Notes under the pieces: generated by a model | What the model saw: the letters and a program-made list of their open reading frames with translations, nothing else | The model's database searches: none | Told to the model about the DNA's origin: nothing | Program-made: the position numbers and the translations under genes | DNA from: Halichondria panicea | Taxonomy: Eukaryota; Porifera; Demospongiae; Suberitida; Halichondriidae | Assembly: GCF_963675165.1 (NCBI RefSeq) | Contig: NC_087385.1 | Span: 1,674,501-1,738,500, forward strand | DNA: 64,000 nt | Direction of reading: 5' to 3' | In this document: one piece after another, positions 104 to 63,519 of the stretch | Numbering within the stretch: the first letter of the stretch is position 1 | Layout of the letters: each line of letters starts with the position of its first letter

Positions 104-34923
<34,820 letters not shown>

Positions 34924-54016: not shown

Positions 54017-57000
54017 TTAATGAATGACTTTAATTCTTCCTTCCACTTGAGGTGCAATTCTTCTGTCCCCATTCTCTGTAAGATATCTGTGTAGGAGAAA
54101 GTAATAATTATGATAGTCGTAGCATGTATACTATGTACTAGGCCTTACATATGTACAACACATGCAAAATACACGTACATTGTACATTGTACATTGTAAT
54201 AACAATGTGTATAATTTAAGGTCACACATGTAGCTAGCTTGCATTTAACAAGCACAAGGAGCACTTACATTGAGCTTGTGTTGGTGTCCACACAATCTTC
54301 TCCGCCAGCACATGCCTGGAAATAATTCTGAACGATCACACTTAGTATCGGGCCCTCCTCCTCACTCACAAGCACCTTGCACTCTTTGAACACATCGTAA
54401 CCATCTCGACCCTGGGCTATGTATCCCTTAGCAGCCAACTTGTAACTTTTGTTCAATTGCAATTGTTCACCACGGACTAGTACACTGTCAGGGACCACTC
54501 GAGACCCACTAGGTTGTGATTCATCAAACGAAAATTGAATTCCAGACACTTGTGGAAATCGTCCTTCCTTTTTGGGATATTGCGAGACTCCATTTTCAAG
54601 TGCTTGTATTAGCTGCGAACCCTTTACCTCGAGTACTGAGACAGCATCCACCATGGGGAGAATACTCATCAGATCCTATATTATAGTGATAATTTAATGT
54701 GCAATTGAACAACACACTCTGAACAGTCATGAAGCACATCATGTGATGTGTATACGTTTTCATTAAGAAGCAGGAGTTTTATGAACATTGCCTGCCTCAA
54801 ACTAGGTACTTTCATGAAGCAAATAATGCATTTATTAACTCACTCCTCTTCTGAATACTCCAGCATCATGGACAGTGTCCGACCTCAATGTACCAGAGTT
54901 CAAAAGTGCCACATCAGCACGTGTGACTTTCCTCATAATGTCCGTAACCAGGTTACCAAGGTTGCACTCTTGCGTCCTAAGACAGTCAAAGCGCCCCTCT
55001 AGATCGCAGTGTATATAGCCAATCTCTTCTTCCCGTCCTGCCTTTAGTCTTCCCTGAAAGTGGTCCACAATTTTCAAAACATCTTCATCAGGGGCTATTA
55101 CACTGGTTATATCGTGACGTTTTACAGAAACTTTAGGACGAGAAGTGGGCGTGTCAGGGAAAGAGACAGTGAGTTCTGAAAATTCTCTGAAATCAGAGCC
55201 ACTCTTGAGCATCAAAACATCTCCCTCCTGTGTAAATTTAAGATGTGGAAATATTGTGGATAATAATAGAGTGTTAATTGTCTGGTGATGTCAATTGGGG
55301 CTATACAGAATCTAACAAGCCACCTAGCACCTAGCCTCGAGACCAGGCCGGCCTGGTCTCGAGGCTACCTAGCACCCAACTATTCTAGCACACCAAAAGT
55401 TGAATTTCATTGTTCATTCCTACATATGCACATGTACACGTAAAAAGAGATAGGAGAGATACAAGACTTAAACTTAAAATATTTATTTTAGATTATGTGT
55501 AAAAGCATCAAGCTACAGAAAATATGTTACACGTACATGCGTTGCACGCAAGTGCCTTCACGTGCAGCTTCCTGCTCAATGCATACTTGACTTGCGTATA
55601 CACCATTTTGAACTCAAAAGTTTGCTAGGTGGCAATACACATAACACCTAGTCGTACGTGTACTCACCCACTGCTTGAGATAGTGGTGGTCGTGTCCTCC
55701 CAAGATGAGATGGATTTGGGGCACCTCTCTGGCTAGACGAAGGTCATTGGGGTCACGCATATGAGTCAGGGCAATTATCAGATCACATCCCTGAAAATAT
55801 CATAATGTACAGTATAATTATAAACTACATGCATTGTCATTATTGAGTGTCAATCAGCACTTTTACATGTATTCGTAGAAATATTCCTACACAGACACAC
55901 TGATAAAGAACCTATGAATACAACTGATAAAGAACCTATGAATACAAATGTACGAATATTAAGGGAGGTATCTCAATTTCTTGTGAACAAATTCACACAG
56001 TCAAGAAATGCGACTACATCTGGTGCATGTGTGAATACTGTGGGGTACCCAAACATGTCAACACACAGTAATACCTGAAACAAACACTGACCTCTTGTTG
56101 TAGCTCAGGCACAAGTTTCTTGGCTGTTTCCACAAAGTCAGTGTAGTCAACATCTTGTGGCTCCAGTGTAGCCAGAGTCTCAATCCACTCCCATTCTATC
56201 AGACCCAGTAAACCAATCTGAGCAAGGGAACATTGTATATGTTATGGTCTCACAACATAGAGTGGGTATCAAGTGGTTTTTTAATCCGACTTCAAAGGGA
56301 GGGCACATGACTAAAACAAGGTTTCACATTATTATTTCCAGGAAGTCTTTACTGCTAGGTACGCACATTAAGGTATGCATAGTGAGTCAGCAGTTATTAC
56401 TTGCAAAATAATACATTGTGTCACTATGAGATACATGTACGATGGGAGAAATTATACTCATGCAACTAGCACAAACAAGCTACCTTTCTTCCTCTCCAGG
56501 GGATAACGAGTTTCTCCAGACCATCAGCTAGTCTCTTCCCTGTAGAGTGCAGTCTAGCATTACTCATGAGCCAAGGGAACTCCATCTCTTTAGCCAGCGT
56601 TGCCAAGTGTTCCACACCAAAATCTGTGAACACGAAGCAGAAGGATAAAGCAACATGTACACATGCACTTGGATCATGAAATTGTACAGTTAATGAAGAT
56701 GGTCAGAAATTAGGCTACACCAAAGGGATACCGGTAGCATCTATATAATACTGTATTACAAACATGTAAGTATGTTTGTGTTTCAGTGTTACCGAAATCA
56801 TGATTTCCATACACAGCAGCGTGTACTCCAATAGCCTTGAGGATCGGTACCATTTGACGGCCTTCGGTGACGATACTGACTGCAGGGAAAAAAGACAATG
56901 TTAAAAAGAGGGAGGGTATACCAAGGGTTAGGCAAAAAATGGAAGGGGTGAGCACTAGGTGGGGATTAATGTGGGTAATCTTATATCCAGATTTCACAGG

Positions 57001-57423
57001 ATTTATTCTTATATCATTATGAATATGGTCACACACAGAAAGCATACACAATATAAATAAAAAACAGATACGCATACACCAATATAAAATGCTAAACTGA
57101 CTATTTGAAGGATTCAAAGCATCTCCACTAAACAGTATCAAAGGTTCCAAGTGTCTCAGACTGTCTATCTGTGACTTGAACCTCGCAGCACCACCAATAG
57201 GCTCCTTCCCATTAGATCTCTCTTCAATATTGTAGACATCATTGAAGTGAATTAAGGTGATACTGTCAGCTACACTAGCACTGCTACTAGAGGAAGCTTT
57301 CTCAGCATCAGGAGACCAGTTTGTGAGGCTTACAGAGGAGCCACTTCGAGCGCCCTCTCGTCTCTCAGAGTCTATGTCCCCTACTTGGTTTGGTCCAGCT
57401 GTCTTTGACACGTTACAGCCCAT
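54017..57423 (-). CDS. 5'-nucleotidase/UshA-family metallophosphoesterase, N-myristoylated type
   Basis: Binuclear-metal phosphoesterase with a 5'-nucleotidase C-terminal domain. Eight exons: 57423-57102, 56879-56793, 56623-56484, 56217-56092, 55790-55668, 55227-54844, 54675-54269 and 54086-54017; all joins in phase, 552 residues. Catalytic domain motifs: LIHFNDVYNI (residues about 54-63), LILFSGDALNPS, YGNHDFG, IALTHMRDPND and LGGHDHHYLKQW. The C-terminal domain has NLVTDIMRKVTRADVALLNS, GTLRSD and AAKGYIAQGRDGYDVF (substrate-stacking region). Unlike CD73 there is no signal peptide: the protein starts MGCNVSK, a myristoylation and palmitoylation signal, so it should sit on the inner face of membranes. 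Similar cytosolic forms occur in protists and invertebrates. Two of seven donors are GTCAGT. Confidence 0.88.
55333..55366. repeat. Perfect 34-bp palindrome
   Basis: AGCCTCGAGACCAGGCC followed directly by its exact reverse complement, in an intron of the phosphoesterase gene. It is the tightest member of a dispersed family (27174, 43651, 63785-63860 and partial 17133, 59090). Confidence 0.95.
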
Positions 57424-57684
57424 TCTTGATCTTATCTCCCAGCCAACAGCTTATTTAGTCCGATCTCCACGGTCACACAAGTCTTGTTTATGTGGCTACG
57501 TCATGTGATAGATCTAGTAGCCGCAGGTTATATCTACGTGCCCCTCCCCTTTCTTGCAGCATTTTAAAGGGGCCTACCTGCTTGCATGACTGCTGGCTAG
57601 ACTGGCTAGACACAACAGCCACTCCTCTTGCAAGCAAACAAACAACTGGCTTTGTAAAGTGAAGGACTGGACATAACTCAAGAG
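57424..57684. promoter_or_regulatory. Shared divergent promoter region (phosphoesterase / SH2-WH1 gene)
   Basis: Start codons of two genes diverge from this 261-bp stretch. No TATA box is evident; CACGTGCC-like and GC-richer sequence lies near 57535-57545. Promoter role inferred from spacing. Confidence 0.45.
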
Positions 57685-60600
57685 ATGGCTTATTACCATG
57701 GATTAATCTCAAGCAGGAGAGCAAATTCATTGCTCACTTCAAAGCCTGATGGCACTTTCTTGATCAGAGACAGCCAGAGTCAGCCTGGAAGCTTTGTCCT
57801 CTCAGCCAAGTAAGTACCAGCAATCTGCAAAATTGTTTTAGCTAGCTAACAGTACTCGTGCTGTACTGCATAAGTCTACTGCTAATATTGTCATCATAGT
57901 GTTTCTTAAGTTATTCAAGCACCTCATAAATTCTCTCATAGAAATGGTCCAAGAATGCACCATGTGCTTGTCTTCCAGAAAGAGGGCAAGTTTCATCTCG
58001 ACAGCGCTGGGGAGCAAAGTGAAGATCCCATCATTTTCGAGACAATGGATGAAATGGTGTCCTTTCTCATTGGTCATGACCTGAAGGTCAATGGGGAAGA
58101 GATACATCTGCAAGAGATGCTACCTTGTATTGATGAGCTGAAGTACAGGGTCCGACTATCAAGCAATGGTAAGATTACTATTTCCTGCTACATTTAATAT
58201 AACATTTTCACAGCTGCAACAAGAGGTGCAGAGACCGAGGACAGTGACCAGTTGACAAATCTTTTTGCTACGTTGTTCGGAACCCACTGTGTGGTAAGAT
58301 TTACTATTTCTTTTTCTCATCACTGGATTGTCTATGTGTGTTTCAGGTTATATGTACAGCACACAGCAAGCTGAGCTTTGATGGGAAACCACTGGCCAAA
58401 GATGGAAAGGAATATATGGCTGTTATTGCAAAAGATGGGAAGCAAAAAGGTTTCTTCTTAAGACTTGTCGACAAAGAAGTGAGCTCTTATAATTTTTATC
58501 TATGAGGTAATCATTCAATTACTCAGGAGAAATGTGTAATTGGCGAGAAAAAAGTTGGGAAAGTGTTTCAGTACGACTTGCCAGGAGACTTAGTCATGAC
58601 ATACTTATCTGAGGTAAATTGCAGCATTCCATCATAGCTTGTATATAGTCTATACATTTACTGCATGTATTGTGGTAAATTTGTGGCAGGAGAATTGTCC
58701 TTGCATGACTGTGGTATATAGTCAGGAGTGTCTCTTCTCTGATATAATACTCTGCATGGTTGCAATTATGAGATACATGTACATGCAGACAGAGTTTGTT
58801 TATGTTGTCATAAGTGAGTGCCTAATTTGCAACTTTGCTAGCAACTCTGTCTGCAAACACCACACTCTTGGCCATGGTTAGTTTTGTCTGGTAAAAGGAT
58901 GGTGACAATGTTTAGTGATTGATTGTGTACGTTAGAGGAACAGTAAAAGCAAAACAAAAATCAGTCCCACTCTACATGCTAGACTATATAATTAAACAAT
59001 ACGGTAACCATATATATAGTGGGTAATTTTCGTATGAACTATAGAGCACTGAAGTGCAAACCCTCGACAAATTTGGTCTACAGCCTCGAGTCAAAGCCGC
59101 GTGTACATCTATATATGGCTATGTGCAGGTTCGAGCTTTAGCTTTTGCTTACTTTTATTCGACAACAAAGCTTTAACATCAAAATCTGCCAAATTTAAAA
59201 CTATACTAACCTGTTGTGTTGAGGCTATCCATGGTACAAACGCAGTACTATCGCATCCAGGTGAGTAGACTCAGATTACATAGAATGACGGGCAGACAGA
59301 CTGACCGACTACTATAACGTTATTTAAATATTCGTATGGCTCAGGATAGAACCTGTTGCGGCAGAATGATTTTTTTTTCGTATGATACTCTACAATACGA
59401 AATATACGAAAAATTCAACCATACACGCGAAAATAACCCGCTATACGGTATGACACTCTGTATGATATGCTCCATGCATGCTTTATCTTGTAGCATGGGA
59501 TAACGTGTATTGGTTTCCGTGACACTCGTGAAAAGGACCGGTTTCTGCACCAGATTGACAGAATTGTCAAGCTGCATCAAGATCGTGCCGTCAAACTGAG
59601 AGGGAGATCAGAGTCCGACGCTAGACCACCACCCTCAAACCCAACCGAGTAAGTTGTGTATTAATTATCTTAAGATTGATGTCAGATGCATTTTCCTCCC
59701 TCACATTTCAGAGTGGTGCACAAAATGAAAGCCACAGATTTTGATGTAAGCTGAATCATTCATGCATGATTATACTGATATATTGATGTGTTTCGATCAC
59801 CTCCATGCACACAGATCTATGACATCAGTCCTGAGTGGCAGTACTTGTTCGACCAGGCAGGCATTACCCAGGAGATGCTAGAGAACACAAAGACACTACA
59901 GTTCATCTTGGACACAGTGTATAAAATTGGAGGAGAACCAGAGAAAATTGACAGTGTACTAGAAGGTGGGTGACGTATAGAAGAAAATACAGTCTTAATC
60001 TGCCTAATATCTACAGCAAATGGCCACTCTAACGGGGACAGTGGAGACCAAACAAAGGAGAGAATAGAAGCTCTAACACTAGATGCCAATCTTAAACGAG
60101 AATCAATGCGAGCATCGTTACTATCAGAAGAGCTCATGAAAAGCTCTCTTACAAAGTACCTCCACAAATCAACCTCACATGTGTGCTCGTATCTTATTCT
60201 GTGTGAGAGGTTCAAGGATCATCTGGTTGTAAAGCACTCGCTGATTTCACTGAGCCCAGAAAATGCTGTATGTTTCTGTGAGAAGTGTGCCGCTGGGAAG
60301 CCAATGGTTCAGATTGCTGGCAATCCTCCTCAGCAATACTCCCTTCCGCTGGGTTGGTGTCAATTCATTCACCAGTAAGCAAACTAGAACGCTTAATTTA
60401 TGTAATTAATACCTATACAACTGCACATGATAATGTACACATGCATGCTAAGACTTGTATTATACAATAATTATTTGCCCTTTCTAGATGGATGTATGTA
60501 TTATAGAGTAAATTGACATTTTACCTTTTACACTGAATGTTCTTGTAGCGGAAATTCTGTTCTGTTTTCAGTTCCATTAAGTATACGTAGCTAATAACTA

Positions 60601-62354
60601 TATTAAATGGTACCCTAATGCATTCTTCACATTCACACACATGCAGATCTCAAACTCACAAGTTCTCTCAGCGCTTTGCCTCCCATTGGCATGTGGGTTA
60701 CTGCTGCGTTCCAGCGTCCAGAGTTGGCGGAGTCTTTAGGACGGGGCAGTTGCTCCATGCCCACTCGACGGGCAAGGTTCTCCTCAGTCCAGACGTCAAC
60801 TGTGCCTGCAGGGTTTCTTCCATTGCACCAGAAACGTAAGCTTACACGTGTACGTACACACCTCTATACCCCTAGAAAACAACAGCTATATAGATCAATC
60901 TAGTTAGCTAGAGCCCGGCCGTCTGCCCGTTATATAGGGGACTGAAGAAGTATTATTAGTATCATTTTACTGTACATAATTATAATCTTTAGCCTGCATG
61001 TATAGTTAACCGGTACATGTAAATGTATAATACTCTACCAGTTAGACAAATCCCCTCGATCTGCAAAGGATATGCATGTCCCTGGAATTAACATTAAAAC
61101 TATACAATTGGCATAAAGGTTGCATATAATTATCCTTAAGGTGACATATTTCGTAGGTATTATTATGAATTTGTACTATCACCGTCCGTATTACAAGAAT
61201 TTTGCTGGTGAAAAACATTTGCGAATGAGCCAAATCAGCAGAAAAATTGACCTTTTGCGATCTAACTATTGCGTTCTGGCAAGGATCGTGTGTATTTACC
61301 AGTACTAATTTAGGGTTTACGATTTTATTATTGCGAATTGATCAACCTTCGCTAATTAAGTTAGCATAATTATGTTTGATACTCGCAAAACATTCTAGTT
61401 TATAGGGTTAATTGGGAATCTCATTAGAACCACTTAATTGCAAGTAAGTATGAAAACTCATATAACTTGAGCAGATCGAATTGAATACCAGCTAAACAGC
61501 ACGCATGAATCGTAGACAAATCTACCTGTGAAAATATAAGGCCATTCCAAGTGATACTCTGGTTTCTGGTCCACCGCCTGCACCAGATTTTATTCTTGGA
61601 TTTCTACCTCATTATTGGATTTCTATCTCATTATTTCGACTATACGTATACACATGTGCGGAATGGTCCAAAATAAGTGTGATAATGATATTATATACAA
61701 ATAATGAGTTCATAAGGTGAAACCAATAATGACATAATGAAAAAAGCCACCCGCCCGCATACAATTAGAGAAACTTCAGGACCAGAAACCAGATTATCAC
61801 TTGGAGTGGCCTAAAGGCACGTCAGATATGCATAAAAAAAATTCATGCATGTTATAAAAAAAAATTATATATCACATGCATGCATGCATGTATATAGTTT
61901 CGTTTCGGTGCATCTCTAGCTATCAAAAGTAGATAATTAGACAGTGATGTCGATGACGCATGCATGTCAAGGCAATAATGCGGTTCTACGATTACTATAC
62001 AGCAGTTCAACACTCTTATAGCTATATAAAGGCAACTTCGTTCTATTAAAGAAAAATCGAACCAAGACTATATTTAATTAATTTTATAGTTGTGAGTTTT
62101 CTATATACAATACATGTACATCACTAACATACTTTACCACCATGCATGACTGTAGGTATCACGACCAAGCTATGGACCAACATTTCAAGGTGCACACAGT
62201 GTTTCAAGTGTTCATTCAGCCGGGGACCTACAATGTGCAGGTGGCTACAGAGCCAAGCTCCTCCACCCTCAGCACACAGCTAGAGTGGCACGTCTCAGAG
62301 AGAACTTACATCATCCACTCACTACTCGTCTTATTGGTGCCCTCAGCTAATTAG
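57685..62354 (+). CDS. SH2-WH1-GBD protein (WASP-like sensor half) with Neuralized-like C-terminal region
   Basis: Eleven exons: 57685-57809, 57942-58168, 58214-58293, 58347-58478, 58527-58613, 59494-59648, 59712-59745, 59815-59965, 60017-60374, 60647-60835 and 62156-62354; every phase agrees, 578 residues. SH2 (about 3-110): YYHGLISSRRANSLL, then GTFLIRDSQSQPGSFVLS with the phosphotyrosine Arg at 28, then HHVLVFQKEGKFHL. WH1/EVH1 (about 128-255): LTNLFATLFGTHCV, then GFFLRLVDKE and VFQYDLPGDL, in the order of the WASP WH1. GTPase-binding domain (about 277-330): DFDIYDISPEWQYLFDQAGI, then IGGEPEKIDSVLE, like the WASP GBD autoinhibitory helices; the CRIB core upstream is weak. From about 340: CEKCAAGKPM, YSLPLGWCQF, SHWHVGYCCVPASRVGGVFR and VFQVFIQPGTYNVQVAT, resembling the C-terminus of NEURL4-type proteins (less sure). 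No proline-rich or VCA segment. Probably couples phosphotyrosine and Rho-GTPase signals. Confidence 0.85.
59004..59452. mobile_element. MITE (ACCATATA..GGGTAATTTTCG ends) carrying repeat family D copy 3
   Basis: The left end GGTAACCATATATATAGTGG then GTAATTTTCGTATG and the right end CGAAAATAACCCGCTATACG then GTA are inverted. Between them 59045-59272 is a family D copy (GAGCACTGAAGTGCAAACCC to TCCAGGTGAGTAGACTCAGA). It lies in the 880-bp intron between exons 5 and 6 of the SH2-WH1 gene. Confidence 0.72.
61186..61403. mobile_element. TA-type MITE family A, copy 5
   Basis: CCGTATTACAAGAATTTTGC to CTCGCAAAACATTCTAGTTT. The right terminal repeat is decayed. In the 1.3 kb last intron of the SH2-WH1 gene; the rest of that intron (60836-61185, 61813-62155) is AT-rich with no gene. 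Confidence 0.88.
61539..61812. mobile_element. MITE family B, copy 2
   Basis: AGGCCATTCCAAGTGATACT then CTGGTTTCTGGTCC at the left; GGACCAGAAACCAG then ATTATCACTTGGAGTGGCCT at the right. Inverted relative to the copy at 12358-12613. Confidence 0.9.
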
Positions 62355-62643: not shown

Positions 62644-63519
62644 TTATAGTTCACTACTAGCAAAAGTTTTAAACTTGCTCATAATCTTGAATCTGTCCAC
62701 CACAACTATTCCAATCTCCTTCAACACATTCTTCATCAGTCCCTGTTCTGTATCCATCATCATATCGCCATCAATCTCATTTTTCTCGAAAAGCTCAACA
62801 TACTTTTCAAATTTATTTTCTTTTAAGAACCTCAGTACTTCGGAGACAGGGAGGCGTGGCTCAGTGTCCTGTAGTCGCCGTGGAAATAGAGTCATGATAC
62901 GAACACAATCAAGAAGAGAGTTGACTCCGAGTTCATTCAGGAATTCGCAATCAGCATCCAACAAGACGTCCCCTCCAACCTCAGCTTCAACAAACGCTTG
63001 TCGGTACTTGTCTAGCTTAATGCTTGTAAGGAAGTCTCCAACATCTTCAGGTGTGTAGGTCCTGGCCTTGGGGGCTAACTCTTCGTTATCTGAATAGACA
63101 CAACGCCAAATCAATGGAATTCAACAGTCAGTCATATGCATACATGTAACTTTGATATAAGCACACAATATGAATGTACACGATAGCGCCAATGGCATAT
63201 AAAAGAAGAGAGGGCATGCAATACAGCAAAAGAGCAAGACTATTTTTAGCACTTCATGCAAATTCCCACATTCCTCCGCCCACATTTGACTTCTGCTAGC
63301 TACGTGTACTAGTTAGTGAGCTGCATGCACTCTCTTCTTTTATACGCCTTTGATAACGCTCTGTATAATTATGTACATATTTATATAGTGCTCAACAATA
63401 TTAAATTATTTGTACGCACTTATAAGTTTATGCATACACACCTTTCTTCATGATGATGCTCTGTGCCATGGACATTATCTTCTTCTGGAAGTCAGGGTCT
63501 TCTTGGAATCTTGATTTCA
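62644..63519 (-). CDS. Tandem SAM-domain protein, C-terminal end (5' part outside window)
   Basis: Two exons visible, 63519-63442 and 63089-62644, joined in phase; the upstream acceptor at 63520 shows more exons beyond the right edge. The first reads SRFQEDPDFQKKIMSMAQSI. The second has two SAM domains: YTPEDVGDFLTSIKLDKYRQ..ELGVNSLLDCVRIM, then LPVSEVLRFLKENKFEKYVE..LKEIGIVVVDRFKIM, ending FKTFASSEL and stop. SAM domains mediate oligomerisation in scaffold or signalling proteins; the full architecture cannot be told. Convergent with the SH2-WH1 gene (289 bp between stops, AT-rich, no feature). Confidence 0.85.
63194..63348. mobile_element. MITE family E, copy 2 (uninterrupted)
   Basis: GGCATATAAAAGAAGAGAGG then GCATGCAA at the left and GCATGCACTCTCTTCTTTTA then TACGCC at the right; about 155 bp. 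It provides the empty-site sequence for the nested copy at 31357-31996. In an intron of the tandem-SAM gene. Confidence 0.9.

Follow-up and report, generated by a model that had tools for sequence, protein, structure and literature searches.

Within a 64,000-nucleotide window of the genome of the sponge Halichondria panicea (NC_087385.1, positions 1,674,501 to 1,738,500 of the forward strand) we found a plus-strand gene at window 57685-62354 whose predicted protein combines, from its N-terminus, an SH2 domain, a WH1 domain, a remnant of the WASP-type GTPase-binding domain (GBD) and a C-terminal domain of the NEURL4 type. This SH2-WH1-GBD-NEURL4-type architecture is real as a genomic gene model. 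Its make-up suggests that three older parts would have come together in one gene, namely an SH2 domain, that half of a WASP gene which encodes WH1 and GBD, and a NEURL4-type domain with a CxCxxC motif and an ART-like region. We tentatively favour the view that the product would be a WASP-derived regulator, aimed by its SH2 domain, that acts on WASP in trans and carries a probably inactive ART-like end.

The gene has 11 exons with GT-AG borders, which join to one open frame of 579 codons including the stop codon (ending at 62354), unbroken across all exons and encoding 578 residues. A preliminary description of this DNA had proposed these eleven phase-consistent exons, and both the model and its domain order stand, the latter borne out by a Pfam match to SH2 and by a match to N-WASP in which WH1 and GBD follow each other in order. 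The model frame scored best in 10 of the 11 exons when codon usage was roughly tested with four sequences from the same genome as the training set. A genome search with the whole protein at an E of 0.001 returned ten matches, of which seven fell on the exons of the gene and the other three were weak and covered the SH2 part elsewhere in the genome; because this search scores best candidates only, the gene is single copy at the sensitivity of that search.

The WASP-like middle part spans exons 3 to 8. WH1 starts in exon 3 (58214-58293), continues through exons 4 (58347-58478) and 5 (58527-58613) and ends in exon 6 (59494-59648), which also encodes a basic linker; exon 7 (59712-59745) covers a degenerate CRIB region and exon 8 (59815-59965) the VCA-binding half of the GBD. 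When residues 115-361 were compared with PDB sequences using phmmer, N-WASP (6uhc_H) came first with an E of 8.4e-10. The same genome encodes two separate WASP genes, WASP-A and WASP-B, adjacent to each other on another contig, C7 (L020, G000:C7:1789000-1798900). Homology was assessed as a local alignment score against 1000 shuffles, and in this test the WH1-GBD stretch scored 123 with WASP-A (shuffle mean 32, Z 19.2) and 100 with WASP-B (shuffle mean 31, Z 15.1), neither score being reached by any shuffle (0/1000 in both cases). The 261 other open reading frames (ORFs) of the window (276 minus 15 overlapping the gene) served as the control set; their best scores, 42-46, lie below both of these and below that of the C-terminus with its own relative, given further on. 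Taken singly, exon 8 holds the strongest WASP signal (score 87 with WASP-A against 25 +/- 4, 0/1000), followed by exon 4 (5/1000) and exon 5 (20/1000), the latter being 87 bases long, exactly as in WASP-A and WASP-B.

The introns of this stretch point in the same direction. Four of its six introns coincide with those of WASP-A at a column distance of 0 and in the same phase; the end of exon 3 thereby corresponds to WASP-A intron 1, and the 880-base intron at 58614-59493 matches WASP-A intron 3 in column and in phase 0. These shared introns indicate that the WH1-GBD stretch descends from a WASP gene. Both C-terminal introns are in phase 2, as are introns 1 and 3 of a NEURL4-type gene on C3 described below (the C3 gene), from which they lie two and one columns off beside gaps; the second of the two, 1320 bases long (60836-62155), is the one whose column adjoins the third intron of the C3 gene, and the second intron of the latter has no counterpart in the C-terminus. 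The intron matches support parentage from WASP and NEURL4-type genes, and they place both junctions that the preliminary description had doubted, 58614-59493 and 60836-62155, inside rather than between the inherited parts. The joints between parts, at 58168/58214 and 59965/60017, are both short phase-1 introns, the first being the 45-base intron 2 (58169-58213) between the SH2 part and the WASP-derived part.

The SH2 domain itself is encoded by exon 1 (57685-57809), which holds the start codon and the N-terminal SH2 half and ends in a phase-2 donor (AA/GTAAGT), and by exon 2 (57942-58168), which holds the C-terminal half. It matches the Pfam SH2 profile above its cut-off (E 2.3e-13) and retains the phosphotyrosine-binding arginine as Arg28 of FLIRDS (codon 57766-57768), in agreement with what had first been noted of this motif in the translation. 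The top-ranked PDB sequence matches of this part are PTPN11 chains; the likeness to SHP-2 type proteins is confined to SH2, whereas no phosphatase or kinase domain was found by Pfam in the 578 residues. To gauge the SH2 intron we sampled ten loci behind 74 SH2 matches, which yielded eleven SH2 matches that were judged by eye; this sample is biased, because most of the loci had been chosen for a match breaking off near the position of the exon 1/2 intron. In eight of the eleven (L036b, L038-L044) the frame meets a stop, and a GT there would cut the codon in phase 2, as at the end of exon 1; L045 stops at the same position, and L036a and L037 read through.

The C-terminal domain was harder to place. 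It gave no Pfam match and, among PDB sequences, a single row at an E of 1.2, which is a chance match; a genome search with it as the query recovered itself only. As the query for relatives we used a composite of the NEURL4 C-terminal domain, and this matched four places: two pieces of the C3 gene (7.2e-9 and 0.041), exon 9 of the present gene (0.0066) and an ORF with a ubiquitin-like part on C9 (0.218). Upstream in the C3 gene there is a match to the Neuralized repeat (NHR) of 22.1 bits, under the cut-off of 23.3, and because that match is sub-threshold we call the gene NEURL4-type rather than NEURL4, a label that rests on this match and on the family composite. With the C3 gene the C-terminus scored 111 against 31 +/- 5 (Z 16.6, 0/1000; best ORF of the window 46), and two of its exons were significant by themselves, the exon 9 part with 73 against 27 +/- 4 and exon 11 with 67 against 26 +/- 4 (0/1000 each); with WASP-A it was not significant (464/1000). 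The Neuralized-type C-terminus proposed earlier is thus upheld by homology to the C3 gene domain, though not by any Pfam match. Exon 9 (60017-60374) begins with a charged linker, the domain starting from about 60151 and including CFCEKC (60271-60288) and LPLGWCQF; exon 10 (60647-60835) covers the region of ART-like motifs I and II (WHVGYCCV; VLLSPD), and exon 11 (62156-62354) the end of the domain, with QLE at 62277-62285, and the stop codon. The motifs CxCxxC, GWxxF and xLEW are common to the C-terminus and the C3 gene, and one loop is about 20 residues shorter in the C-terminus.

NEURL4 is already known as an ART-like, PARP-related protein, and Table 1 of PMC7955679, from which we take the ART motif names, gives the H-L-E triad of human NEURL4 as HGS/LLS/ELE. 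Like the human protein, the sponge C-terminus holds LLS, and it has QLE where human NEURL4 has ELE; unlike NEURL4, the 578-residue protein shows no Neuralized repeat (no Pfam match at E 1) and no HGS/HGT motif, there being no 'HG' beyond residue 440, and ART motif I is not recognisable. In the best ungapped alignment with the C9 ORF a cysteine falls at the histidine position, at a score reached by 22/1000 shuffles, and the comparison with the C3 gene gives no clear diagonal through the histidine motif. By the alignment with the C9 ORF, cysteine is the likeliest residue at the ART histidine position, alignments that keep a histidine in motif I (WHVG or IHQS) being judged less likely. The ART-like end is probably inactive.

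Several other candidates and observations concern this domain. The C9 ORF (L035:1036-1998, G000:C9; 320 residues) appears by eye to join a ubiquitin-like part to an ART-like part containing YHGT; as a relative it was set aside, its score with the whole C-terminus not being significant (327/1000) and that with the C3 gene weak (5/1000). Degenerate DNA patterns for NEURL4-type motifs gave one match against one in the control, by eye no relative, and other such patterns returned the gene's own locus only, or two matches against two in the control. A fast first look with the NEURL4-type protein as the query did not match the SH2-WH1-GBD gene, despite the clear pairwise score. ORFs at five of seven NHR loci (L021, L023, L025-L027; L022 and L024 not included) showed no such C-terminal domain. 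At L021 and L023 (G000:C3, ~447-628 kb) Neuralized-repeat matches are clustered, the whole genome giving 58 of them at E 1 when matched exon by exon, and two long ORFs there combine, by eye, NHR, coiled-coil-like and protein-kinase-like parts. Intron 5 (at 58900-59470) and one of the introns in the NEURL4-type gene (L034) contain short stretches that resemble each other (CCCGCTATACG), perhaps a shared repeat (by eye).

What the protein may do is suggested by what it kept and what it lost. It shares the order of WH1 and GBD with N-WASP and WASP (WASL, WAS) and with WASP-A and WASP-B, and four introns with WASP-A; in contrast to N-WASP and WASP it adds an SH2 domain and a NEURL4-type end and is devoid of a WH2 match, a conserved CRIB core and the WH1 tryptophan. 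No WH2 match was obtained in the 578 residues with Pfam at E 1, and by eye the linker has one PPP, while neither a long polyproline stretch nor an acidic tail is seen. In both WASP genes, ORFs that closely follow the joined parts match WH2 (WASP-A 1.2e-9; WASP-B 1.4e-4, 21.9 bits, cut-off 23.1), and an acidic stretch follows farther downstream of WASP-A (by eye). The earlier claim that the Arp2/3-activating tail is missing thus stands, and its wording that the tail was lost or had never been there can be narrowed: given descent from a WASP gene with shared introns and the WH2 matches downstream of both WASP genes, it either stayed behind or was lost.

In WH1, the tryptophan of WASP-A, WASP-B and N-WASP, whose position we take to be a member of the ligand-binding aromatic set, is aligned with an alanine beside a three-residue gap, and there is no tryptophan in the stretch. 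In the GBD, the alignment puts P, E and HKM in place of F206, H208 and HVG of N-WASP, so that the CRIB core is not conserved, and the CRIB segment does not rise above shuffles (282/1000 reach its score). The conserved part is the C-terminal half only, the VCA-binding half in exon 8. According to PMC5217673, VCA binds residues 210-274 of N-WASP and Cdc42 residues 194-253, and the H208D mutant is without Cdc42 binding.

Three functions had been suggested for this protein. The sequence favours the dominant-negative-like regulator, and makes the WIP-binding scaffold and the tyrosine-kinase to Cdc42/Rac adaptor less likely. In the favoured mechanism the SH2 domain would dock the protein on phosphotyrosine sites, and the GBD remnant would bind in trans to the C-helix of WASP-A or WASP-B once that helix is freed, which would dampen Arp2/3 activation there without any response to Cdc42; the NEURL4-type end would serve for interactions and have little or no catalytic activity. 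Possible targets in trans exist in the same genome, in the form of WASP-A and WASP-B with their downstream WH2 matches. A role as a brake on WASP would best fit what was kept and lost. The most specific version, in which a cut-down WASP copy was shuffled between SH2 and an inactive ART-like domain, with phase-1 introns at both joints, to give a phosphotyrosine-aimed, Cdc42-independent WASP brake, is speculative, and we regard it as rather unlikely.

The alternative that survives best is a positive adaptor, an SH2-recruited scaffold that would gather WASP, WIP-like partners or ubiquitin-system proteins, its GBD unlocking or localising WASP instead of inhibiting it. Domains like WH1, GBD and the C-terminal domain often serve as scaffolding modules, and the WH1 relationship is retained in the sequence; on the other hand the WH1 tryptophan is not conserved, and the retained GBD half binds VCA and so would compete with it. 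We consider this unlikely, if still a serious contender. The narrower proposal of a WIP-binding scaffold is weakened by the alanine at the tryptophan position.

A second alternative is that the locus yields two products, overlapping or side by side: one would consist of SH2 only and end within intron 2 (stop at 58195), and the other would be a separate WH1-GBD-ART protein. The exon 2 frame does continue some residues into the intron before this stop, but exons 2 and 3 are just 45 bases apart, the exon 3 frame contains no ATG from the preceding stop to exon 3, and minus-strand genes on both sides would leave enough space on the plus strand for about one transcript. We think this improbable, and infer that SH2 and WH1 lie within one mRNA. 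The Cdc42/Rac adaptor could appeal to the presence of a GBD remnant and to WASP-B, whose CRIB is also weak (PBD 16.9 bits, below the cut-off, profile 14-52 of 59) yet which has WH1, GBD and a WH2-like match, so that degenerate CRIBs may still work; nevertheless, because the CRIB core is not conserved here, with Glu at the H208 position, this adaptor is not supported and has little probability. Equally poor are the prospects of a decaying gene or pseudogene whose divergent domains signal lost function, as the degenerate WH1 and CRIB and the unrecognisable ART motif I might suggest, against 11 exons free of stops and frameshifts with GT-AG borders throughout, the model frame being favoured in 10/11 of them, and a well-kept SH2 domain and VCA-binding half.

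Certain results weigh against the reading as a WASP-derived regulator. Pfam WH1 matches the whole protein with an E of 0.0011 (19.3 bits) and a trimmed piece with 2.5e-4 (21.4 bits), under the cut-off of 22.4, and Pfam PBD matches a trimmed piece with an E of 0.11 (13.3 bits, cut-off 21.3) over profile positions 20-55 of 59 only; genome-wide exon-by-exon searches with both profiles at E 1 did not have this gene among their matches. Two of the six introns compared, one in the linker and one at the C-terminal joint, have no match in WASP-A. Exons 3, 6, 7 and 10 carry no significant signal singly (688, 119, 885 and 262 of 1000 shuffles, respectively, reach their scores), and exon 10 is the one in which the model frame was not best in the codon-usage test. 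The loss of the ART histidine depends on one of several possible alignments. The affinity of the N-WASP GBD for a VCA peptide in vitro, 28.8 µM in PMC5217673, is weak for inhibition in trans. Finally, the gene model is drawn from the genomic DNA of one species.

In the open PMC literature, no such architecture was named in the titles and abstract openings among the matches listed, which does not show its absence from print. Upstream, a divergent neighbour (56710-57450, minus strand) has its first Met about 260 bases from the ATG of the SH2-WH1-GBD gene and looks 5'-nucleotidase-like by eye, its first 110 residues being without a Pfam match, and the downstream neighbour (62644-63120, minus strand) has two SAM domain stretches. 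Elsewhere in the window, by eye, three consecutive ORFs at 870-4886 resemble seven-transmembrane receptors, and repetitive ORFs at 8755-10334 are open in several frames and tandem-repeat-like.

The gene is an instance of domain shuffling in which parts of WASP and NEURL4-type genes kept introns. If it is expressed as one protein, tyrosine-kinase input would be placed directly on a WASP-derived module, bypassing Nck-like adaptors, and the protein would represent a natural separation of the two jobs of the GBD, the binding of Cdc42 and the binding of VCA.

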